Virus record (IMG/VR): IMGVR_UViG_3300034198_023063
Coordinates: 16,758-80,757 of that record
Origin: a virus
Length of the DNA: 64,000 nucleotides
Reading direction: 5' to 3' (one strand)
Each line of letters opens with the position of its first letter. Within the stretch, counting starts at the first letter, position 1. Below are positions 13,747 through 63,648 of the stretch, piece by piece. The notes beneath the pieces are model-generated. The model saw only the letters and a list, made by a program, of their open reading frames with translations, had not been told where the DNA came from and ran no database searches. Made by a program: the position numbers and the translations under genes.

Positions 13747-16700
13747 ATGGCAAGTATTTCGCTGACGCCAACAAGAACGCCAACTAGGACAAGAACTCCT
13801 AGTATTACGCCTAGCGTAACACCGACTACTAGCGCAACGCCAACGACTAGCGTTACTCCTAGCGTTACTCCAACAAACAGCGTAACGCCGACTACTAGCG
13901 TAACACCGACTACTAGCGTAACGCCAACGACTAGCGTTACTCCTAGCGTTACTCCAACCAACAGCGTAACGCCGACTACTAGCGTAACACCGACTACTAG
14001 CGTAACGCCAACGACTAGCGTAACGCCGACGGCTAGCGTTACTATAACACCAAGCGCTACTCCTAGTACGACTCCAATACCAAGCATAACTCCATCAATT
14101 TCAGTTTCTGGAGCAAAACCAAATGATGATAAAATATTTTTAGTTAATATTTTTAATATTATTGGAGCATTAACAAGAAAGCCGATTGCAGATCAATTAA
14201 TAAATATAGATACCTCTATAAAAACAGCTTACTCGAAAGACATTGAAAATTTTGAGCAGTACGCTTCAATAAGTTTATTTAATAACAAAACAATAACTGA
14301 TTTTTATAATAATGTAATAGTTAAGTCTTCATCAATCTTAGATCCAAATGCTAAAAATGCTGTATTAGATAAGGACATTAAAGAAATAAGATCGGATTTA
14401 ATAAATATTTATCTTTTCTCGACTTATAGAAATGTTAGTCAAAAAGACTGCATCTCTTTAAATGCTGATGGCACTATAAATTTCGAAGATTTAACTGTTC
14501 TATCAAAGATTTATAATATAAATTCTACATCTGTTGATGTATTGCAACTTGGAGATCCAAATTTATCTAGTTATACAAATCAACAAGAATCAGCAAAACC
14601 ATATGCAGAAGTTAGAGAATGCGATGGAATTTTAGTTTCAAAATCTTATGTAAATGTTGATGGTCTAATAAAACAGATTTATCCTTGGGACTATAGCAGC
14701 TCTAAATATTCCAGCGCAACAGATAAAATAGTAACTTCATTTTATAAATGTAAGATTTATTTATTTGTAGTTAAGAATTACGAGCCGCAAAGCGCGACTT
14801 TCTCATACACAACATATCCTTTAGTGTTTAAATACTCTTCAATAGAGTACGAATACGCACAAGATTTTGATGATGTAACAGAAATTCAAACTGCCCAAAA
14901 TATACAAGTAAATAAAATCTTCTATCCTTATTCTTTATTAATAAATAATAATATGGTGAAAAAAGGAAGCTTGATGGGCGCGGCTTTGCCAAAATCTTTC
15001 TTAAACTTCCCTAAGATTTGCATAAATGATGACGGATACTTCAATGGGGATATGTCCGCTTTATCTTTGCCGCAAAATACAATGGCTTGTGATTTAGGCG
15101 GAAATTTAATGCTGCAATATAATAGTGGGCAAGTGTTAAAATTAGCAGATGCTCAATTATGTGGCGACCAAACAAGAAACGCATTTATTAAGGTTAATAA
15201 CGTTCTTTCTCAGTCTTCTCCCATTTACAAAAATCTTCCAGTTGTATCTGGGGCGATAGATATATATGCTGACAATTTTTCATATTTATATTATATTAAA
15301 AAGGACTCTTCTTTAGAACTAATCACTGGAGATGCATCTATAAAAAATCAAACCCAGTTATATTCTGGGCTGCCTTTAAATACAGACAATTATTTTGCTT
15401 ATTCTTATAATGAAAAATACAAAGATTCAGCTTTTATATTTTCGTACGCTTTTAGAGCAGTGAGCGGAACTAGTTCTACTGATTTCTATTTAGATGTGAA
15501 GCCAGAGGTAAAGAGGCCAAGATTAAGATTGCAAAATATAAATTCACTTAATAAAGTCGCTGTTATTTCAGATTTTGCTACTGGACTAATATATTCATTT
15601 AATGACGAAGCTGCAATCTCAACAGGAATTGTTGATTCTGGTAATGGAATAAATCAAATATCTTTTATTCCAACATCTGGAAAATATGGAACACTACACA
15701 TAGAAGCTAGAAATTATTTTTATGACTTTGATGACGGAAGCAGAAGTTTGTACTCTACGTCAGATTCGATTCAAGTAGGTAATTCTCCTGTGATATCTGA
15801 TTTTAGATTAGAGTTGCTAAGAAATGGAACGCTTACAAATTTTTATGATTCTAATCAAAATTCTATACCTGCAATATCTGGAGCAGTATTTGACCAACAA
15901 ACTTTTGATAACTATAGATATTATAATCCATACACTAATAACAATCCTATACAATTTAAGTTATCTTACAATTATAATTACCAGATCGGTTTAAGAGTTG
16001 GAAACTCGGATATAAGAATGATCCCAAGCGGATCAAGCGCTACGTTCAGTAAACAGGACTTCTTCTCTTTATTGTCTAATGATGGATCTATTAATATAAC
16101 TTCAATATTACAAGATGGGACAGAATTTGTAGCTCCATTTATTTTTAAAGATAGCTACAATATGAATCCAGCTTTATCTAATCTTACAATAAATAAAGTT
16201 ACAATGTATAACGCCGAAGAAACAGATTTGACTTTTAGCTTCGACTATCAATATACAGAAATGATTAGATATGAAATATTAAATCAAGATGGCGTTGTAA
16301 TTTATTCTGCGCCGTTCAAGACGAAATTCTCTTCTAGCGTAATTTCATATTCCATAAAAACTGACATCATTCCAATAGAAAATGTAGATAGTTTAACCGT
16401 AAGAGTTACGCTAAAAAATACAACTGACTCATCTGGAAATGAATTATATAATACAGCGATTTCAAGTTCTAGTTCTTATATCTTGCCATTAAGGTTGCCA
16501 AGATTAAATGCTTCTTCGATAAGGTTCTTTTCCGACGCAGCCTTATCGAATGAAATATCCACAATGAGAAAAAATCAAACTATTTATGTTAAATTACAAT
16601 TATTTGATAAAAATGGTATAGAAATAAATGAAAACGATTACTATAAATATATAAATACAGATCCTAATTCTTTGCAATTCATATTCTCAAATCCAGAGAA

Positions 16701-16845
16701 TTTAAATGACTATCAGAGAGGTGTAATTTTTAATAAGATATCTAATTATGTTTATTCATTATTTATTTCCCCAGACACAAGTTTTGCAAAAAATACATCT
16801 TTAGTAAGCGTAAAATACACACCAATATACGAATATAAAAATTAA
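13747..16845 (+). CDS. Virion protein with mucin-like Thr/Pro/Ser repeat N-terminus
   Basis: This 1032-residue protein starts with about 115 residues made almost only of Thr, Pro, Ser and Val in repeats such as SVTPTT, then becomes a beta-rich protein like its neighbours. The repeat should form an extended, non-globular stalk dense in potential O-glycosylation sites. The DNA under it is far more GC-rich than the surroundings and contains a recent 84-bp duplication. A GG-rich site in the preceding gene's last codons (AACAAGG) supports the ATG. Similar low-complexity Thr/Pro stalks occur in other phage surface proteins. A stalked fibre or decoration role is inferred. Confidence 0.7.
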   Translation: MASISLTPTRTPTRTRTPSITPSVTPTTSATPTTSVTPSVTPTNSVTPTTSVTPTTSVTPTTSVTPSVTPTNSVTPTTSVTPTTSVTPTTSVTPTASVTITPSATPSTTPIPSITPSISVSGAKPNDDKIFLVNIFNIIGALTRKPIADQLINIDTSIKTAYSKDIENFEQYASISLFNNKTITDFYNNVIVKSSSILDPNAKNAVLDKDIKEIRSDLINIYLFSTYRNVSQKDCISLNADGTINFEDLTVLSKIYNINSTSVDVLQLGDPNLSSYTNQQESAKPYAEVRECDGILVSKSYVNVDGLIKQIYPWDYSSSKYSSATDKIVTSFYKCKIYLFVVKNYEPQSATFSYTTYPLVFKYSSIEYEYAQDFDDVTEIQTAQNIQVNKIFYPYSLLINNNMVKKGSLMGAALPKSFLNFPKICINDDGYFNGDMSALSLPQNTMACDLGGNLMLQYNSGQVLKLADAQLCGDQTRNAFIKVNNVLSQSSPIYKNLPVVSGAIDIYADNFSYLYYIKKDSSLELITGDASIKNQTQLYSGLPLNTDNYFAYSYNEKYKDSAFIFSYAFRAVSGTSSTDFYLDVKPEVKRPRLRLQNINSLNKVAVISDFATGLIYSFNDEAAISTGIVDSGNGINQISFIPTSGKYGTLHIEARNYFYDFDDGSRSLYSTSDSIQVGNSPVISDFRLELLRNGTLTNFYDSNQNSIPAISGAVFDQQTFDNYRYYNPYTNNNPIQFKLSYNYNYQIGLRVGNSDIRMIPSGSSATFSKQDFFSLLSNDGSINITSILQDGTEFVAPFIFKDSYNMNPALSNLTINKVTMYNAEETDLTFSFDYQYTEMIRYEILNQDGVVIYSAPFKTKFSSSVISYSIKTDIIPIENVDSLTVRVTLKNTTDSSGNELYNTAISSSSSYILPLRLPRLNASSIRFFSDAALSNEISTMRKNQTIYVKLQLFDKNGIEINENDYYKYINTDPNSLQFIFSNPENLNDYQRGVIFNKISNYVYSLFISPDTSFAKNTSLVSVKYTPIYEYKN
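13840..14022 (+). repeat. 84-bp tandem repeat encoding a 28-residue Thr/Pro unit
   Basis: Two adjacent copies of an 84-bp unit (13840-13923 and 13924-14007) differ at a single visible base (AACAAACAG versus AACCAACAG), followed by a partial third copy. Each encodes 28 residues of TTSVTP/SVTPTN-type sequence and is itself built from shorter 15-21 bp units. Near-identity shows recent duplication. Because 84 is a multiple of three, unit gain or loss would change stalk length without breaking the frame. Confidence 0.85.
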
Positions 16846-24922: not shown

Positions 24923-24958
24923 ACGATATATGATGCTCTTTTTACTCTAGATTGTCAA
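24923..24958 (-). promoter_or_regulatory. Sigma-70-type promoter for the SSB-like gene
   Basis: Minus strand: TTGACA (24958-24953) lies in the last codons of the polymerase gene. A -10 can be read as CATCAT after 17 bases (7 bases before the ATG) or CATATA after 20 (4 bases before the ATG). Either choice puts transcription start at or next to the start codon, and no Shine-Dalgarno sequence is visible. Confidence 0.55.
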
Positions 24959-27509
24959 GATTTTTTTCTTTAAGCTCAGACAATTTTGTATATATTTTTA
25001 GTGTTTGAACGCCGAAAGTTTCTGCGAAAACACAGTCTTGCTTTTTGGTTCCTTTAACGATAACTATGTCTTCAGTTTCGGGCAGATAATCGTTATTTGC
25101 CGACTTGTTAAAGTCGATTTTATCATTAAAGGTAAGGATGGGAATTGATCCATACTCGTCAGACACAATCATCTTAAATGTTCTGGTTTTCTTTTCGTTT
25201 TTGGATACCCATTGGGAACTTTCTTCAACTTTGCCAACTATAAATACAGTAGAGTTATCTTGTTTATTTGGTAAGTCTTTCAATGTGACTAGATTAGGCA
25301 TCTTCTGAGAGAATATCTCAAATAAAGATTTGTCGTAGCTGTATCCAAGAAGTTTAGTTTCATAAAACCAATTAGCAAAGCTTTCTGATTTATTATTTTG
25401 CTGGTAGATCTTTAAATAAGGATCATATTTCTTTTTGATTGTCTGAAATCTAGATTCTTTAATTAAAAGCTTGCCATTTTCATTCTTTGTCTCTGATAGC
25501 TTTTTAAGAACTTTAATTAAATCAAACTCAAATTCTGAACCAAATTGAATGGCTAACACTTTTTCCTTATCAGTAAGAATATTCCATAATTGAGCCTCTA
25601 GCACAACTCTGCTTCTTGAAGATGAGAATCCATCTAACGCACCGGCTTGAATTAAAGCTGAAACAACTCCAATAGATAGCCCGACTTCTTTTGCTGCCTC
25701 AAAAACTTCGAACTTGTTTGAATGATCTGATTTAAAGTTTTTAAGCTTTTCCATCGTTTTTTCAGAAATACCCTTGATCGAAGACAATCCGAATCTAATG
25801 TCTTCTCCTTGAATTGAAAAATCTGTTTCTGATTTTAAGATATGCGGGCCAAGAAGCTTTATGCCGAAATGCCTAAGTTCTTTCTGTATTTTTGAAATTT
25901 CTTCTAGAGGAGCAGGTTCATGCTTAGTCATCTCAAGCAGAGCGAGGAAAAAATGTTTTGGATACTTGAATTTTAAGTAAATAGTGCAAGCAGCCAATGC
26001 GGCATAACTCATTGAATGAGATTTATTGAAAGAGTAGTTTGCGGAGTTTTCTAAAATTCTCCACAGAATATCTCCAATCTCGGGAGCTAATTTATTTTCC
26101 TTAATTTTTTCAGAAATCTTTTCTTGCCACTTCTTTACTTCTTCTACCTTCTTTTTGCCAACAATTCGACGCAAAACTTCAGCTTCATCAAGAGTGAAGC
26201 CAATCTTGTTGGACATTTTCATTAACTGCTCTTGGTAAAGAGCTACGCCGCCACTTGAGCTAAGAACAGAATCAAAGAAAGGATGAATTGGTTCGTAAAC
26301 ATTGTTGTTAGTAAAATTAGCGTATTGATCTACGAACTCCAAGGCTCCGGGGCGAGCCAATGCAAGTACACCACTTAATTCTTCTAGATTTTTCGGTTTA
26401 ACTTTTTTACAAACCTTGAAATTTGTATCAGCTTCAATTTGAAAAATTCCATGAGGAGTTTTTAAATCGGCTAGTTGTTGATAAATGAACGGATCGTTAA
26501 AATCTATATCGTTAACGTTTATTCCAACTAACTTGCAGACTCTATCGACTATTGAAACGCTTCGCAAACCTAACAAGTCAAGTTTAACATTGAACGTGGA
26601 TGCCCAGTTCATGTCATAGCTAGAGACCTGTTCCTTGTCGCTAGTAAGTTCAGTAGGGCAGCTTTTATCCATCGGGTAGTACGAAAGCATCATGCCAGAT
26701 GCATGAACGCTTTTATTTTTGATTAAACTTCTTAATTTAAGAGCGGTATTGTAAACCCTTGGATTTTCATTACACCATTTCTTGAACTCTTCCACTTCGT
26801 CATAAGCGTCTTTCAGATCCATGACTTGGCCGAAAGTCTTCGGAATTAAAGAGCTTACGTCATTCATTTCTGTTTCTGTCTTTTCTTCTATTATTTTACC
26901 ACATTCTTTGATTAGTAGTTTGCCACTCAAAGTGGTTAATGTTAAAATTTTAGAAGTCCTTCCAGAGAATAACTGCTCTAGGAATTTAATTACTTTATAG
27001 CGATTATAGTAGCAAATATCAATGTCAACATCGCACATTAAAGATCCATCAAGATAAGTAATGCCATCGACTACTTGCTTCTTGGCTCGAATCTTAGAGA
27101 TGAAACGCTCAAAGAATAGTTCGTATTTGATTGGATCTACCTTGGTAACCCCCAACAAATAAAGAATAAGGCTGCCAGCAGCAGAGCCGCGTCCAAGACC
27201 AACAGGAATGGAGTTTTCGTTGCAATAATTAACAACAGTCCATACTAATAGAACATAATCTAGAAATCCAAGCTCTTTAATGGTTTCCAGTTCATACTTT
27301 ACTCTTTCTGAATATTTAGAGTATTCTTCTTTCGGAATTTTTAATTTCTTAAAATTGCTTCTGCAAACTTGAATCAAAAAGTCATAGTTAGAAGACTCTT
27401 CTTTTAGGCCGTATTGAGTCTTGAGCCGGTTCTCTATATTAAATTCTGGCAAACGAACGCCATACAATGGAAGCTTTATATTGTCAAACGCAGATTCAAA
27501 TTTATTCAT
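24942..27509 (-). CDS. dnaE: DNA polymerase III alpha, polymerase part without PHP domain
   Basis: An 855-residue C-family polymerase that begins at the linker after the PHP domain. Visible motifs: GRGSAAGS (106-113), the CDVDIDI block with catalytic Asp162 and Asp164, SVHASGMM (~268-275), KLDLLGLR with the third catalytic Asp311, a YQEQLMKMS/RRIVGKKK block, and FNKSHSMSYAAL. A C-terminal OB-type domain follows near residues 745-830. It acts as the replicative DNA polymerase. The missing PHP domain is encoded separately at 28134-28901, with a DnaQ-type exonuclease between. It overlaps the exonuclease gene by 4 bp. Normal DnaE is about 1160 residues, so together the two parts make up a near-complete alpha subunit. 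Confidence 0.92.
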   Translation of the reverse strand: MNKFESAFDNIKLPLYGVRLPEFNIENRLKTQYGLKEESSNYDFLIQVCRSNFKKLKIPKEEYSKYSERVKYELETIKELGFLDYVLLVWTVVNYCNENSIPVGLGRGSAAGSLILYLLGVTKVDPIKYELFFERFISKIRAKKQVVDGITYLDGSLMCDVDIDICYYNRYKVIKFLEQLFSGRTSKILTLTTLSGKLLIKECGKIIEEKTETEMNDVSSLIPKTFGQVMDLKDAYDEVEEFKKWCNENPRVYNTALKLRSLIKNKSVHASGMMLSYYPMDKSCPTELTSDKEQVSSYDMNWASTFNVKLDLLGLRSVSIVDRVCKLVGINVNDIDFNDPFIYQQLADLKTPHGIFQIEADTNFKVCKKVKPKNLEELSGVLALARPGALEFVDQYANFTNNNVYEPIHPFFDSVLSSSGGVALYQEQLMKMSNKIGFTLDEAEVLRRIVGKKKVEEVKKWQEKISEKIKENKLAPEIGDILWRILENSANYSFNKSHSMSYAALAACTIYLKFKYPKHFFLALLEMTKHEPAPLEEISKIQKELRHFGIKLLGPHILKSETDFSIQGEDIRFGLSSIKGISEKTMEKLKNFKSDHSNKFEVFEAAKEVGLSIGVVSALIQAGALDGFSSSRSRVVLEAQLWNILTDKEKVLAIQFGSEFEFDLIKVLKKLSETKNENGKLLIKESRFQTIKKKYDPYLKIYQQNNKSESFANWFYETKLLGYSYDKSLFEIFSQKMPNLVTLKDLPNKQDNSTVFIVGKVEESSQWVSKNEKKTRTFKMIVSDEYGSIPILTFNDKIDFNKSANNDYLPETEDIVIVKGTKKQDCVFAETFGVQTLKIYTKLSELKEKNLDNLE

Positions 27510-28144
27510 ATCTCGACTTGAAATTTAATTTTATTCCACACTTTTAGATTTAACTCCAAATCTACAATAGCATTGTGGAGATTTTCGTAATCATGCTCTA
27601 TGTTATAATCTTTTCCGAGAGAAGTTAAATTAGTTTTAATGCCTTTTCTATAAGTATGAAGCAACTTGTATTGATATTCTACAAGGGACTCTTTTGGCAT
27701 TTTAGGAATTCCATATTTGATTCCTTTAGCCAAGCAATTAGTATCAAGGATTTTATTAACTAGATGGCTAGCTCGCATTCCTTTGAGTAAATACATCTCT
27801 TTTATTAAATACAAGTCGAAGCCAAGAATATTATGACCAACAATATAGTCAGAACACTCAAGCCAATCCCTAACAGTACTAAACACATCATCAAATTTCT
27901 TGCCAGTTGTTCTAATAAGTTCTTCTGGATATCTTGTGATTCTTCTCGCATCTTCAGATATTTTAAGGTTTGTGTCCCATTTAACAAGAAAATCTCGCTC
28001 GTCGACTTTTTTTCCGCCAACAGTGCTTAGCATCGCTATTTGCCAAGGTAGATTTTGACAGAAATTAAGGCAAAGATTAAGTGTTTCGCAGTCGATAAAA
28101 ACAAGTTTTTTAGACTTGTCAAATCTTAATAGTTCATTTTCCAT
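27506..28144 (-). CDS. DnaQ-like 3'-5' exonuclease (DEDDh), proofreading subunit
   Basis: A 212-residue exonuclease of the DnaQ/epsilon family. The DEDDh residues are visible: Asp18 and Glu20 in FIDCET, Asp110 in HNILGFD, and His190/Asp195 in HNAIVD. It would remove mismatched 3' ends for the replicative polymerase. It overlaps the polymerase gene by 4 bp and the PHP gene by 11 bp, so it is coupled to both. The order PHP, exonuclease, polymerase reproduces as separate genes the domain order of Gram-positive PolC. No clamp-binding motif is obvious. Confidence 0.88.
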   Translation of the reverse strand: MENELLRFDKSKKLVFIDCETLNLCLNFCQNLPWQIAMLSTVGGKKVDERDFLVKWDTNLKISEDARRITRYPEELIRTTGKKFDDVFSTVRDWLECSDYIVGHNILGFDLYLIKEMYLLKGMRASHLVNKILDTNCLAKGIKYGIPKMPKESLVEYQYKLLHTYRKGIKTNLTSLGKDYNIEHDYENLHNAIVDLELNLKVWNKIKFQVEI

Positions 28145-28901
28145 ATTTTTCCTTGAATGATTCTGCGCAAAATTCGTTAGACGAAAAGTGGTCTAAGTTT
28201 GGTTTATTTAAAGTAGTTCTATTAGAAATACATCTGAAAGTTAAATACGTTAGAAAGTCTTCTTTGTTTTCGTAATACACAGATTGACTTTGCACTATAG
28301 AAGACTTGTCGAGAATTGTATCGTTAACCTTACGACTCAAAATACCATCGAAAGGCAAATTATTATCTTCAACAAAATAAATCAAATCGCAAAAACTAAA
28401 ATCAGGAACGCAAATGCTATAAGTTAAGTTATTCTTAAAAATATAGGAGTCGTAAAATGGTATTGCCATTAGAAGATTATCTTTATTCCATAGCTCTTTT
28501 AGAACTTTACAATCTATTCTTGGGTAATAATAAAATCCAGTAGTGCTGGCTGTTGTGGATATTTTAATTAGATCCTTATACCCTTCAGCATTTTTGATAA
28601 AGATTATTACTTTGTGCTCTTTATCTTTTGACTCAGTGGTCTTATTATTTATATCATCACATATCGTGAGCCTAAGCCCAAACCTTAAATCAATCTTCGA
28701 TTCTTCGCAAGACTTGTACGCCTCTAGAAAACCAGAAATAGAATCTTCAACCAAATATAGTTTGTTTAATTTAAGTTTTAAAGCAATATCTATTATTGAG
28801 CTTGGTTCATGCTCTGAGCTAGACCCAGCCTTAGAAAGCGTCAAAATAGATTTCCCAAGACTATAATGGGATTTGAAAAGAGGAATGGCTGAGTAGTCCA
28901 T
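28134..28901 (-). CDS. PHP domain of DNA polymerase III alpha as a separate gene
   Basis: A 255-residue protein matching the N-terminal PHP part of a DnaE-type polymerase: it opens with a FKSHYSLG-type motif (the first metal-site region of PHP domains), followed by SSSEHEPSSIIDIALKLK, which corresponds to the helix after it, and a YYYPRID segment. Several canonical metal-binding His are absent (for example the HxH of motif I appears only as SHYS), so phosphoesterase activity is doubtful and a structural role in the polymerase is more likely. It is the first of three overlapping genes (PHP, exonuclease, polymerase). The start is ATG at 28901, directly after a promoter-like element. Confidence 0.75.
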   Translation of the reverse strand: MDYSAIPLFKSHYSLGKSILTLSKAGSSSEHEPSSIIDIALKLKLNKLYLVEDSISGFLEAYKSCEESKIDLRFGLRLTICDDINNKTTESKDKEHKVIIFIKNAEGYKDLIKISTTASTTGFYYYPRIDCKVLKELWNKDNLLMAIPFYDSYIFKNNLTYSICVPDFSFCDLIYFVEDNNLPFDGILSRKVNDTILDKSSIVQSQSVYYENKEDFLTYLTFRCISNRTTLNKPNLDHFSSNEFCAESFKEKYGK

Positions 28902-53199: not shown

Positions 53200-53235
53200 T
53201 CAATATAATATGGGTCAAAGACTTACAAAAGTCAA
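53200..53235 (-). promoter_or_regulatory. Strong sigma-70-type promoter, leaderless architecture
   Basis: Minus strand: TTGACT (53235-53230), 17-base spacer, CATATT (53212-53207), then 7 bases to the ATG at 53199. The TGA inside TTGACT is also the stop codon of the sigma-like gene, so promoter and stop are the same bases. No Shine-Dalgarno sequence lies before the ATG. Confidence 0.65.
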
Positions 53236-53843
53236 ACAAAATCGACAAAATCTTTGCTCGTAACTTTATTTTTCAAGAAAATTCTTGTCTTTTCGTGAAG
53301 ATTGATTGCTGTTTGAGTGCTAACCCCAAGTTTTTTGGCGATAGAATTCCAAGTAGCCAGCTTCTCCTCTCCTGAGAAATACCTAAGCTCATACACCTTT
53401 TTTATCCTTTCATCTTTGAGAGAAGACAGCAGAGAATTTAAATACTCAAATGTCTCATTGTTTTTATCAAAAGATAATACAATATCCTTGTTATTAAAGA
53501 AATCTATTTTATTATCCTCAGAAACTATATATTTCTTGTTTGAGTTAATATAATTCAAAAAATGATACTTGACGCAGTTGCAAAACCAAGTTGAAAACTT
53601 CGTTTTCTGCTTCGCATCGAAAGATTTTACTGCTTTATAAAGAATAAAGTCCTTCTCAGCTTTAATATCACTTATATTCATTCCAGCCCTCATCAAGGCT
53701 GAAGAATATTTCTGAACTATCGAGTAGTAAAAGTTATCGTATCCTTTTGATAGAGATACGAAACTATCGTTACAGTTAAGATCTTTAATTTTCTTTATTA
53801 ATCTTAACTCATCCTTGTTAATATTGTTTTTTACTTTAGCCAT
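53232..53843 (-). CDS. Sigma-70-like RNA polymerase factor
   Basis: A 203-residue two-part protein. The stretch AVKSFDAKQKTKFSTWFCNCVKY (~residues 71-93, only key elements named: KFSTWF) resembles sigma region 2 (FxTW), and the C-terminal ~60 residues (RYFSGEEKLATWNSIAKKLG) form a region-4-type helix-turn-helix. It is diverged, as phage sigma factors (T4 gp55, SPO1 types) tend to be, and lacks a clear region 3. It probably directs host RNA polymerase to phage promoters. Its start has a GGAAAA Shine-Dalgarno element folded into a leader hairpin, and the candidate structured RNA lies directly upstream. Confidence 0.7.
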   Translation of the reverse strand: MAKVKNNINKDELRLIKKIKDLNCNDSFVSLSKGYDNFYYSIVQKYSSALMRAGMNISDIKAEKDFILYKAVKSFDAKQKTKFSTWFCNCVKYHFLNYINSNKKYIVSEDNKIDFFNNKDIVLSFDKNNETFEYLNSLLSSLKDERIKKVYELRYFSGEEKLATWNSIAKKLGVSTQTAINLHEKTRIFLKNKVTSKDFVDFV

Positions 53844-53846
53844 AGT

Positions 53847-53871
53847 GTTTTCCTTTTAGACATTGGAAAAC
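53847..53871 (-). promoter_or_regulatory. Leader hairpin hiding the sigma gene's ribosome-binding site
   Basis: GTTTTCC (53847-53853) and GGAAAAC (53865-53871) are fully complementary with an 11-base loop. On the minus strand the 3' arm holds the purine-rich Shine-Dalgarno sequence (AAGGAAAAC) that precedes the ATG at 53843. Pairing would block translation, so RNA structure or a bound factor could control the sigma-like gene. Confidence 0.5.
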
Positions 53872-54314
53872 AGCCATCGCCTTTATAACTTTTCCCTGAG
53901 TTGGCTTTTAAGAAATAGCAGGTCAACTGAAATTGTTAGATTTCAGTTTATTTAACCCAATCCTACCCGCTTCAGTCATCGCATCCCCGGCTTTAGTGAG
54001 TCCGTGTAGCTCGCGACTAAGATTGGCTATTTTCTGCTAACTGTTTACGGTTGACTTTTTTTTCGACACAGCCATCGCCTTTTCCCTTGAGAGGATTTAA
54101 GTTTCTAGCAGTTTTTCACAGGGGCCTTTAGGACGCCGCTTCTCCCGAACTAACGCTGGGATTTCTCCCAACCGCCTGTGGTCTTTTTACGGGCTTGTTG
54201 TCTCTTACGAGTTTTAAATGGGTTTCCCCAAGTGAGCATGGTTTTGCTCTAGCTACCACCAACACCGCACAGTAAGTTAAAAAGAACAATGATCCGTTTC
54301 CCTTGAAAGTCAAG
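53872..54314 (-). ncRNA. Candidate large structured non-coding RNA
   Basis: About 440-470 bases between two minus-strand genes hold no plausible gene (a 74-codon frame here is a shadow), yet are much more GC-rich than their surroundings and full of inverted repeats. Stems: 53925-53933 with 53940-53948 (9 bp); 53957-53962 with 54021-54026; 54034-54039 with 54106-54111; 54117-54122 with 54175-54180; 54157-54161 with 54166-54170; 54219-54222 with 54227-54230; 54234-54237 with 54246-54249. Two of them close GAAA tetraloops only when read on the minus strand, which sets the direction. A 14-base direct repeat (53870-53883, 54068-54081) also lies here. It did not match tmRNA, RNase P or a group I/II intron by eye; phage-linked families such as ROOL or GOLLD remain open. 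Confidence 0.45.
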
Positions 54315-54722
54315 TTACTTCTGCAAATCTTTTGGCGAAACTTTAGATGCAATAAATATTAAATTTTTAATATCTTTTTCCGTTATATTTTTCGGATCGC
54401 TCTTTTCGGCTTCGTTTTGGAGAACTTCGCAGACGTTATTTATTACACTCGAAATTCCAGCAGCAAGAAGATAGTTGAGTTCGATTTGCTGAGAAAATGC
54501 CTCTAGCGACTTAAATAAAATCCAGTAATCAGATCCTCCAACTGAACAGCTTCTGAGCAGACCAGAAGTTTCCATATCCTTCAACGCACATCTTAAAGCG
54601 GCTTCGTCTTCCTCTTCGTTTTCTGTAACCATTACGATTTCTTTAAAATGGGTTTTTAAATTTAAAACAGTTTTTTTGTTGAAAAACTCATTGATTAACT
54701 GATAAGCATCTAAAATAGTCAT
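54315..54722 (-). CDS. Small protein, possible winged-helix domain
   Basis: A 135-residue protein. Residues ~40-70 (ALRCALKDMETSGLLRSC, then a short hairpin) have the shape of a winged-helix recognition helix and wing; the rest is helical and acidic. No other motif is seen. It is the first gene of the minus-strand arm next to the divergent dUTPase promoter, with the structured non-coding segment behind it. A regulatory role is conceivable, but it could be any small phage protein. The ATG at 54722 has no strong Shine-Dalgarno sequence upstream. Confidence 0.5.
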   Translation of the reverse strand: MTILDAYQLINEFFNKKTVLNLKTHFKEIVMVTENEEEDEAALRCALKDMETSGLLRSCSVGGSDYWILFKSLEAFSQQIELNYLLAAGISSVINNVCEVLQNEAEKSDPKNITEKDIKNLIFIASKVSPKDLQK

Positions 54723-56290: not shown

Positions 56291-56515
56291 TTAACGCTTT
56301 CCGGTGTTTCCTGAATTACCGGCACTTCCGCCCTTTCCGACATTGCCAGTAGAGCCTCCGTTACCGACATTTCCAGTAGAGCCTCCCTTACCGACATTTC
56401 CAGTAGAGCCTCCTTTACCGACATTACCAGCATTACCAGCGGATGATGTATTGCCGACATTTCCGACGTTTCCAGTCTTAGCTGCGGCCTTTTTTTGCTT
56501 TTTTGTCTTACTCAT
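56291..56515 (-). CDS. Gly/Asn/Ser repeat protein
   Basis: A 74-residue protein with a basic N-terminus (MSKTKKQKKAAAKTG) and then near-perfect 9-residue repeats of the GKGGSTGNV type, which makes the DNA unusually GC-rich. The minus strand is chosen because a strong terminator directly follows its stop and the basic start is protein-like, while the overlapping plus-strand frame is a Pro/Leu/Phe repeat shadow. The composition suggests a disordered or fibrous, possibly RNA/DNA-binding or condensate-forming, peptide. It is the only minus-strand gene in this part of the plus-strand block, hence independently expressed. Confidence 0.55.
   Translation of the reverse strand: MSKTKKQKKAAAKTGNVGNVGNTSSAGNAGNVGKGGSTGNVGKGGSTGNVGNGGSTGNVGKGGSAGNSGNTGKR
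56340..56420 (-). repeat. 27-bp tandem repeat inside the Gly-rich gene
   Basis: Three units of 27 bp (56340-56366, 56367-56393, 56394-56420) differ at only one or two positions, encoding the 9-residue GKGGSTGNV/GNGGSTGNV repeat; degenerate copies flank them. The multiple-of-three length keeps the frame when units are gained or lost. Confidence 0.8.
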
Positions 56516-60910: not shown

Positions 60911-61551
60911 GCTATCAACTATATTTTGATTTTAGAACTCCAGAGCAGAAAGCTGCTCATGACGCGTCCGTGAAAGAAATAAATACAGAGCTAGACGATA
61001 TCTTTGATGAAGAAGAGCGTTTAGATAAATTCTTAGATCTTATCCCTTTTGGCGTCGGGCATAAGGTTCGTGAATTTTATTATTCTTGCAGATGGAATAT
61101 TAAATGCACTTATCAAAAAATTCGCTATGGAGTTTCTGACGACGATATTTTTTCATTATATGATAATATATCTAAATTTCTTATTCCAAGATTGCAGTAC
61201 TTTAAAAAGCATGGTAAAAAAGGAATTCCAGTAGAATTTGTTCCCCATGATTACCATCTTCTTTCCGAAAGCGAAATGAAGATCGCAGATGAAAAAGCCG
61301 ACAGAGAATGGGGTTCTATTCTTGATGAAATTATTTTTGCTTTTGATTATACTATCGACAGTGATAAATACGCTCCATTTCCTGAAATCTTGATGAAAGA
61401 TCCTTTTGATAAAATTAATTTCAATCGAGATAGAACTCCAGAAGAAAAAGAAGCTTGGAACAATTATATAGCTCTTTGTAATCAACTTAATGAGCGCAAG
61501 AAAAAGGGCTTAGAACTTTTCGCAAAACATTTTGATAATTTATGGGTTTAA
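60907..61551 (+). CDS. Unknown acidic phage protein
   Basis: A 214-residue, charged, Asp/Glu/Lys-rich protein without recognisable motif. The N-terminal 50 residues are acidic and helical (DDIFDEEERLDK), followed by a region with Trp/Tyr/Arg and a helix-rich end. I have seen similar large acidic proteins in T4-like phages next to nucleotide genes, but cannot name a family. It overlaps the metallophosphatase gene by 4 bp. Confidence 0.5.
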   Translation: MSYQLYFDFRTPEQKAAHDASVKEINTELDDIFDEEERLDKFLDLIPFGVGHKVREFYYSCRWNIKCTYQKIRYGVSDDDIFSLYDNISKFLIPRLQYFKKHGKKGIPVEFVPHDYHLLSESEMKIADEKADREWGSILDEIIFAFDYTIDSDKYAPFPEILMKDPFDKINFNRDRTPEEKEAWNNYIALCNQLNERKKKGLELFAKHFDNLWV

Positions 61552-61567
61552 TAATATTATAAAAAAA

Positions 61568-62224
61568 ATGAACTTCACACTAGAATCAATAGATCCAGAA
61601 TTGGATAAATTAATAAACAAGTATGGATCTGATAAAAATCTTAGCAAGTATAATTTAGTTTATTCTAAGCTTTTTAAAGATATTAAATTAGATGTGACTT
61701 CAGTTTTAGAAATCGGAGTTGGCAGTTTAACTTCCGAAAGCTCAAGTTTTGCTGGCATCAAAAGATTTTTTCCAAACTATTCTCCCGGTGCGTCTTTAAG
61801 GGTTTGGCGTGATTATTTCCCCAACGCTTTCATTCATGGCGTTGATATAGGAGAAGACTGCTTAATAGAAGAGGACAGGATAAAAACTTTTATTTTTTCT
61901 TCTACTCGCCACGACAAGTGTTTGGAGCATTTATTTGAATATAAATATGATATTATAATAGATGACGGAGATCATCAAGGATTGAGCCAACTTTTAACTT
62001 TTAAAAATCTAATTCCTTTGTTAAAGGAAAACGGATATTATTTTATAGAAGATGTTGGCGGTTGCGGTGGCTATTTAGCGACAGACGGAACCTCTTATAA
62101 TCCTCAGCTATTTGGTGAATATAAAGATGAATTTTATAAAACTGTAGAAAGATATGAGCAAAAAGCTTATGTAAATACAAGACCAATTATAATAACAAAA
62201 AATCCAATGACTTTTGGTTTATAG
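61568..62224 (+). CDS. SAM methyltransferase, GSDK family, copy 1
   Basis: A 218-residue protein from the chosen ATG (MNFTLESID). The family hallmarks KYGSDKNLSKY, VLEIGVGSL (SAM loop), the SLRVWRDYFPNAF segment, GVDIGED and DIIIDDGDHQ (acidic motif) place it with class I methyltransferases similar to macrocin/mycinose sugar O-methyltransferases. It has a close paralogue at 63001, with the central block nearly identical. It would methylate a sugar or related small molecule, fitting the glycan cluster. The upstream TTG start is possible but adds an unlikely leader. Confidence 0.75.
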   Translation: MNFTLESIDPELDKLINKYGSDKNLSKYNLVYSKLFKDIKLDVTSVLEIGVGSLTSESSSFAGIKRFFPNYSPGASLRVWRDYFPNAFIHGVDIGEDCLIEEDRIKTFIFSSTRHDKCLEHLFEYKYDIIIDDGDHQGLSQLLTFKNLIPLLKENGYYFIEDVGGCGGYLATDGTSYNPQLFGEYKDEFYKTVERYEQKAYVNTRPIIITKNPMTFGL

Positions 62225-63000: not shown

Positions 63001-63648
63001 ATGTATAGAAAATTTCAATCTAAAGACCCACTGCTCGATAGTTTAATAGAAAAATACGGGTCAGACAAAAATTTAAGTGAATATAATTTAATATATGCTG
63101 AAATATTTCAAAAAATAAGATTCGATGTAAAATCAGTTTTGGAAATTGGTATCGGCAGTATGATTTCGCCGCACTCTAGATTCGATGGAATAAAAACTCA
63201 CTACCCACACTATTCTCCCGGCGGTTCTTTAAGGGTTTGGAGAGATTATTTCCCAAACGCTTTTGTTCATGGAGTAGATATTGGAGAAGATTGCCTTATA
63301 GAAGAAGAGAGAATAAAAACATTTATTTTTTCTTCAACCTTACATTATAAATGCTTAGAAAATTTATTTAATTATAAGTACGATATAATAATCGATGATG
63401 GCGACCATCTTGGTTTAAGCCAACTTCTTACATTCAAAAATCTAGCTCCTCTTTTGAAAGAAAATGGTTATTATATTATTGAAGATGTTGGAGGCGGAGG
63501 TGGGTATCCAGTTACTGACGGCAGTCATTATAATCCTAATTTGCTAATAGAATTCAAAGATGAATTTTACAAAACAGCAGAGAAACATCAATTAACAGTC
63601 TACGCAAACAAAAGACCTCTAGTATTATCTAGAAACCATGTCGAATAA
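63001..63648 (+). CDS. SAM methyltransferase, GSDK family, copy 2
   Basis: A 215-residue paralogue of the protein at 61568: KYGSDKNLSEY, VLEIGIGSM, SLRVWRDYFPNAF, GVDIGED and DIIIDDGDH are shared, while the N-terminus, a short middle segment and the last ~20 residues differ. The cupin and two small genes separate the two. Duplication with divergence at the ends suggests two positions or acceptors in one methylation route. The start is ATG with AAGGAGATTGATTT upstream, a clear Shine-Dalgarno element. Confidence 0.75.
   Translation: MYRKFQSKDPLLDSLIEKYGSDKNLSEYNLIYAEIFQKIRFDVKSVLEIGIGSMISPHSRFDGIKTHYPHYSPGGSLRVWRDYFPNAFVHGVDIGEDCLIEEERIKTFIFSSTLHYKCLENLFNYKYDIIIDDGDHLGLSQLLTFKNLAPLLKENGYYIIEDVGGGGGYPVTDGSHYNPNLLIEFKDEFYKTAEKHQLTVYANKRPLVLSRNHVE

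Follow-up and report, generated by a model that had tools for sequence, protein, structure and literature searches.

The window analysed here, a 64,000-nt stretch of the virus record IMGVR_UViG_3300034198_023063, contains a gap without genes (53844-54314) between a 135-aa open reading frame (ORF), termed F1 (54315-54722), and a gene for a sigma-70 region 2 protein (53232-53843), both encoded on the minus strand. The GC content of the gap is 0.42-0.48, as compared with about 0.26-0.37 on both flanks. The first-pass annotation of this DNA had drawn attention to the same gene-free, GC-rich stretch and had proposed that it encodes a structured non-coding RNA. A structured non-coding RNA of ~410 nt is indeed encoded on the minus strand (53870-54280), as established by covariation over 27 homologues together with the match of an independently built covariance model. 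All features of the RNA described below lie on the minus strand.

Homologues, covariation and architecture of the RNA

The 27 non-identical homologues reside on viral contigs of freshwater and marine phages, all of them uncultured and possibly fragments, and were reached via a DNA pattern, the neighbouring protein and a profile. A search with the sigma protein returned an identical locus (L003) and two loci (L004 and L005) in which the gap is 80% identical and double changes preserve the stems, and the sigma protein alignment led to L057, in which the RNA precedes a gene for a deoxynucleoside monophosphate (dNMP) kinase-like protein. The full set was obtained with the pattern CGTAAGAGAC N6-10 CGTAAAAAG, which joins the two most conserved blocks, a pattern for the loop of helix P6 and a wider sigma search, and was confirmed by a profile search. 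The resulting 27-sequence alignment (A6) has a mean pairwise identity of 64% and a lowest identity of 42%. Scans with the 16-mer patterns AAGAGACAACAAGCCC and TTCGGGAGAAGCGGCG were discarded, their matches outside the near relatives being all unrelated. A pattern scan of a genome collection gave five matches, all attributable to chance, and no cellular copy was seen; a similarity search of 50,697 phage records returned only tRNA and low-scoring noise and no true homologue.

The covariance model, which the first-pass annotation had suggested building from homologous phages, was restricted to the 5' core of 21 sequences with the window's clade left out, and it matched the window at 54116-54237 with E = 1.1e-15. 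The same model found L004, L092, L098 and L097, and in each of nine contigs it identified one strong copy only. A cmscan search of Rfam 15, likewise suggested at the outset, gave no match at the gathering threshold for the window region; the family is absent from Rfam and appears to found a family of ~400-nt structured non-coding RNAs.

Thermodynamic folding was dropped as proof of structure, since the folding energy of the minus strand corresponded to z = -1.75 only, with 6 of 100 shuffles equally good (plus strand, z = -1.14). The structure is shown by covariation, not by folding energy alone. Among 36 counted core pairs, 30 were changed on both sides, and none of 500 shuffles reached the observed scores. 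The 5' core (P2, P4, P5, P6 and the CCCG/CGGG pairing) contributed 26 pairs, 91.8% paired, of which 21 were changed on both sides, and its double-change cells numbered 107 versus 34 in shuffles, with no shuffle as high. For helix P8, 89.9% of cells were paired over 10 counted pairs, nine of them with changes on both sides; the covariation score was 0.762 versus 0.246 for shuffled and at most 0.213 for slid controls, and double-change cells numbered 67 versus 18 in shuffles. When partners were slid by 1-3 columns, pairing fell to 31-54%. In a swap test based on duplex energies, the own partner of P1, P2, P4, P5, P6 and P8 outperformed all 5000 permutations (for P1, -15.7 with its own partner versus -9.9 when swapped, 0 of 5000). 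Both the shuffle and the swap tests leave some shared ancestry in the signal; the helices have, however, been re-made in several clades, and in the freshwater clade hardly any of the bases that form P1 are the same. These structure-based tests were used instead of a G-test over all column pairs, whose outcome mainly reflected shared ancestry (E = 0 for one pair). Because U-G pairs occur on the modelled strand (for example, in 10 of 27 sequences at one P8 pair), the RNA strand is the minus strand.

The RNA is organised as a 5' domain closed by P1, which contains P2, P4-P6 and the CCCG/CGGG pairing, and a 3' domain built on P8, with two similar hairpin regions (M1 and M2). The 5' and 3' strands of P1 (54263-54277 and 54040-54052, respectively) are supported by the swap test. 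The 5' strand is followed, along the RNA, by an extra hairpin GAGC-AAAACCAT-GCTC (54234-54249), which in alignment A6 is confined to the freshwater clade (window, L004, L092, L098 and L099, with a variant in L097), and by P2, a GGG-GAAA-CCC hairpin at 54220-54229 (GGGGAAACCC) in which 6 of 6 pairs were changed on both sides in alignment A9. P2 is one of two GAAA-loop hairpins that the first-pass annotation had correctly assigned to the minus strand only; the other (GGGAGAAATCCC) lies near 54157-54171, the approximate position of P5. The most conserved single-stranded motif, CGUAAGAGAC...CAAGCCCGUAAAAAGAC (54182-54209), shows few changes in all homologues, and a CUC-GUAA-GAG hairpin considered within it was rejected as a conserved stem, being broken in L066, L068 and L098. 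Within this motif the strand CCCG (54190-54193) would pair with the P6-loop strand CGGG (54144-54147) to form a pseudoknot; 99% of cells are paired, and the few changes on which this candidate rests are one aligned change (C-G to U-A in L057 and L102) and a shifted one in L097. P4 (54117-54180), formed by CACAGG (54175-54180) and CCUGUG (54117-54122), encloses P5 and P6 (54132-54155), and changes on both sides affected 6 of 6, 5 of 5 and 3 of 5 pairs of P4, P5 and P6, respectively (0 of 500 shuffles).

In the 3' domain, covariation defines the 5' and 3' strands of P8 (54013-54026 and 53957-53970, respectively), which are accompanied by a conserved motif, UGCGAUGACUGAAG (53970-53983; alignment A8). 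The P10 hairpin lies at 53925-53948. The perfect 9-bp stem of P10, AACTGAAAT/ATTTCAGTT, had been singled out among several short inverted repeats in the first reading of the gap, and in A6 it is re-made with other bases in L092, L098 and L099 (UCUUAGAU...AUCUAAG). A long-range CTGCTA/TAGCAG pair listed in the same reading is present in the sequence, but L004, though 80% identical, does not keep it, and it falls outside the supported structure.

The twin direct repeat

A direct repeat, first described as 14 bases long and measured here as 15 nt (ACAGCCATCGCCTTT, at 53870 and 54068), forms the 3' parts of M1 and M2. M1 (54068-54110) lies inside the 5' domain and ends in copy R2 (AAAGGCGAUGGCUGU, 54068-54082); M2 (53870-53922) lies at the 3' end of the RNA and ends in copy R3 (AAAGGCGAUGGCUGU, 53870-53884). 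No further copies occur within the window. Of the 27 aligned RNAs, 24 have both copies, which are identical inside each genome and different between genomes. The repeat reads AAAGGCGATGGCTGT in the window and L004, AAGGCGATGGTGGA in L092, AAAGGATAAGCAGTCA in a large group around L059-L063, AAAGGCTGACAGTCAA in L068, AAGCTGGCAGTTC in L066, AAAGTTGGCAGTCG in L080 and GGAAGGAAGAAGTTAAA in L070, and it takes at least eight different sequence forms. The longest word shared by M1 and M2 was 14.4 nt within genomes versus 6.3 nt between clades (concerted repeat test, p = 5e-5), although no block of the RNA is less conserved than R2 (46% versus ~80% for the core). In L092 and L098, M2 extends to 12 bp. 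There is no clear repeat pair in L097, and in L065 and L085, which are close to L080, both copies are lost while the fold is kept. In these two loci (L065:10896-11267 and L085:9239-9609), a plain hairpin, GGCCACCT-AGA-AGGTGGC, stands in place of M1.

The simplest reading of this pattern would be that both copies serve one common partner, and we regard it as an evenly balanced question whether M1 and M2 are twin docking hairpins for a single such partner. Several observations weigh against docking hairpins: M1 and M2 of the window, taken alone, fold no better than shuffles, the partner-swap test for the two regions was not significant, and copy R3 of L070 pairs with downstream sequence instead of M2. 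A competing account, in which the RNA itself is real and the repeat has been homogenised by recombination (gene conversion) with no joint role, is favoured by the shortness and proximity of the identical stretches and by the sharing of bases between the 5' strands of M1 and M2 within clades as well (CTGCTA in the window, CTACTA in L092). Gene conversion is nevertheless doubtful, given that in A6 identity ends sharply at the repeat edge while loops and spacers differ, and that the repeats have lasted through all these sequence forms and disappear as a pair.

Neighbouring genes and transcription signals

The downstream sigma protein was identified by Pfam (PF04542, E = 2.5e-5) and PHROG (351, E = 2.7e-9) searches, neither of which returned a family for F1. 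The predicted structure of F1 (AlphaFold, pLDDT 92) is a winged-helix fold with a helical tail, and its matches in the Protein Data Bank (PDB) are repressor-type winged helices at E values of about 0.01 only. F1 lies upstream of the window-type RNA in 26 of 27 loci, and it adjoins either this RNA or a second RNA family, described below, in 31 of 32 loci. The genes 3' of the RNA encode the kinase, the sigma protein, a DUF736-like protein and a glycosyltransferase-like protein (the last judged by eye). The window-type RNA is not tied to any single neighbour gene, because F1 is missing from the L070 contig, an extra gene is inserted 5' of the RNA in L059, L060 and L083, and no kinase gene separates the RNA from the sigma gene in the window's clade and L070. 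F1 as an obligate partner was ruled out, since L070 has the RNA without F1, and L056, L103 and L104 have F1 without the window-type RNA. Clusters of tRNA genes occur a few kb from the RNA in L062, L063, L065, L069, L083 and L084; many loci show no nearby tRNA, and the window has one tRNA-Ser at a distance of 4.4 kb. In L068 a tRNA-Gly (GCC) gene at 1310-1385 begins 14 nt past the second repeat and is followed by the kinase gene with its own promoter. The contig that holds the RNA of L057 also contains, separate from that RNA, a transfer-messenger RNA (tmRNA)-like gene (L074:8440-8712; RF00023, 47.8 bits, truncated where the locus ends) beside a tRNA-Leu.

A promoter-like element (54285-54313) with a -35 hexamer TTGACT (54308-54313), a 17-nt spacer and a weak -10 element ATTGTT (54285-54290) is predicted 5' of the RNA in the window; a transcript start would be expected at about 54278, and we infer both the start and the end of the transcript. 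The position of TTGACT is kept in the window's clade, and TTGACA, TTGACT or TTGCTT together with a -10 element precedes the homologues. The candidate promoters are strong in L070, L080, L066 and L068 (11 of 12 consensus matches in L070 and L080), with weaker TTGACT or TTGCTT elements elsewhere. A boxA-like sequence, GTTCTTTG, at the RNA start was rejected, as it is lost in L068, L070, L080 and L065 and is accounted for by P1 in most members.

A stand-alone structured RNA gene appears quite probable because in L070 the RNA is directly preceded by TTGACA-N17-TATTAT and directly followed by an intrinsic terminator, because the next gene has its own separate strong promoter in L102 and L068, and because the RNA persists where F1 is absent or a gene has been inserted 5' of it. 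There is evidence on the other side as well. A consensus scan finds no promoter in the window, where the match to consensus is poor, and no terminator follows the RNA there, so that read-through into the sigma gene is likely; and the downstream operon is always on the strand of the RNA, as would be expected for a leader too.

The first-pass annotation had left room for a regulatory leader. Such a leader would be a long structured 5' untranslated region acting in cis on how the kinase/sigma operon is transcribed or translated; in the window it would mask the ribosome-binding site of the sigma gene. Consistent with this, wherever a homologue has sufficient flanking sequence, kinase and/or sigma genes lie 3' of the RNA and on its strand, and the RNA of the window and of L004 continues into a hairpin, UGUUUUCC/GGAAAACA (53846-53872), that holds the likely Shine-Dalgarno sequence of the sigma gene and changes from GUUUUCC/GGAAAAC in the window to GUUUCC/GGAAAC in L004. 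This hairpin is absent, however, from L092, L098 and L099; the next gene varies (sigma, kinase or, in L068, tRNA); a terminator follows the RNA in L070, and the next gene has a promoter to itself in L102 and L068; a leader could be far shorter than ~400 nt; and its apparent replacement at the locus in other phages is a free-standing RNA. A leader role is improbable overall, above all when the whole family is considered, and less so in the window's clade.

The apparent replacement RNA was found in L056, L103 and L104, which contain F1 and the sigma gene and in which another conserved ~400-nt non-coding sequence follows F1. These three sequences are 74-87% identical among themselves, and two more members, L115 and L118, are located in 158-kb contigs. 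The second-family RNAs (L056:3237-3640, L103:3288-3690, L104:4040-4460, L115:7132-7576 and L118:1534-1978, all minus strand) follow F1 in 5 of 5 contigs, none of which holds the window-type RNA. Different members form one hairpin, ACTGATGGGTAATTCCCATCGC, from different bases, and L056, L103 and L104 gave no Rfam match. The second family resembles the window-type RNA in its length, in its position after F1 and in a predicted TTGAC-type promoter; it differs in being followed by a predicted strong terminator and in sequence, there being no detectable relation between the families, as each profile finds its own members only. The predicted promoter and terminator of the second RNA, with the genes after it on the opposite strand in L103 and L104, support the view that the slot harbours a free-standing RNA gene, and the exchange suggests that the two RNAs may be functional replacements of each other.

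The best explanation overall, and in our judgement a probable one, is that the window encodes a stand-alone phage RNA gene whose product would serve in trans as a scaffold with twin docking sites. The RNA would be transcribed during infection from its own sigma-70-type promoter, fold into a compact object and act through its shape, while M1 and M2 would dock one partner, which might be a dimeric RNA-binding protein, a second RNA copy or one target strand; such a shared partner would force both repeat copies to change together. More tentatively, in one phage lineage either of two unrelated RNAs of ~400 nt may occupy the slot beside the winged-helix gene and perform the same function, the window-type RNA acting as a multimer or ribonucleoprotein with its identical-strand hairpins on one partner; if so, the hairpin pair would evolve as a lock with two matching keys.

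Several other features were observed in passing. At 24942-28901 (minus strand) of the window, a DNA polymerase III alpha-like protein appears, by eye, to be encoded in two separate pieces, one of 855 aa and a PHP-like one of 255 aa, which flank an exonuclease-like ORF. The plus strand encodes a 1032-aa protein with tandem repeats SVTPTTSVTPT... (13747-16845) and two closely similar, apparently duplicated methyltransferase-like genes in tandem (61532-62224 and 63001-63648; ...LDKLINKYGSDKNLSKYNL... and ...LDSLIEKYGSDKNLSEYNL...), and a 74-aa ORF on the minus strand (56291-56515) carries tandem repeats GNVGKGGSTGNVG.... In a different phage group (L028, L031, L055 and others), a conserved stretch, CCTTGTAGTATCAAGACCCTGTGTTAGAAGCGCAATAACACAGCCACCTTGAAGAGACAACAAGCCCC, lies just 5' of a gene beginning MSEEEQANPYN; it includes the stem CTGTGTTA/TAACACAG and has the appearance of a structured leader.

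Comparison with known RNAs

As the first-pass annotation had judged by eye, the RNA does not fit tmRNA, RNase P RNA or self-splicing introns: ARAGORN and cmscan were negative for tmRNA in the window region, and no RNase P covariance model matched there. A large compact fold, highly conserved unpaired purine-rich motifs and direct repeats ~200 nt apart that flank the 3' domain could also be expected of a self-splicing intron or other ribozyme with the repeat as its exon-joining sequence. Such a ribozyme is very improbable, given that the only sub-threshold Rfam match, Intron_gpI, reached 12.4 bits (E = 3.4; gathering threshold 50), a chance level, that cmscan found no group I intron in the homologues, that there are no exons and no interrupted gene, and that L065 and L085 retain the fold without the repeats. 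Decayed or short coding sequence with structure by chance, for which short readable stretches in the window such as MLTWGNPFKTRKRQQARKKTTGGWEKSQR up to a stop might speak, can be dismissed, because L004 carries indels and stops, no reading frame stays open throughout the 27 sequences, and base changes track base pairs, not codons.

Few large phage non-coding RNAs are known to us, and none with an understood function. The present family adds a well-supported example whose architecture is small and regular and whose neighbour gene is fixed, and it offers two unusual handles on function, namely a second RNA that takes its place at the locus and two strands that are identical within phages and change freely between them. 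Both handles give testable predictions on the partner, and the alignment and model are ready for curation.

Among known phage RNAs, put and LOOT are leader or antitermination RNAs, structured elements at the start of phage transcription units. The window-type family is much larger, has its own terminator in L070 and next-gene promoters in L102 and L068, and matches no Rfam model.

ROOL and GOLLD, which the first-pass annotation had named as being of the same general type, are large phage-borne RNAs that are often located near tRNA genes and form RNA-only multimers, ROOL assembling into an RNA-only homo-oligomeric cage (PMC12286853). Their models matched neither the window nor any of six homologue loci at the gathering threshold, and gave no match up to E = 5 in the window, L059 and L068. 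The window-type RNA further differs from ROOL in sequence, in length (~400 nt versus 659 nt for ROOL env-120), in its fixed position, with a winged-helix gene on one side and the kinase/sigma operon on the other, and in its twin coevolving repeats, and from GOLLD in being about half as long and in having a 5' core conserved as well as the 3' domain. Membership in either family thus fails on the covariance models, and the resemblance is one of general type only: like ROOL, the window-type RNA is a large structured RNA that probably acts on its own, with all its loci on viral contigs and tRNA genes near several of them, and like GOLLD it is an ornate phage RNA that a tRNA gene may approach or even adjoin, as the tRNA-Gly does in L068.
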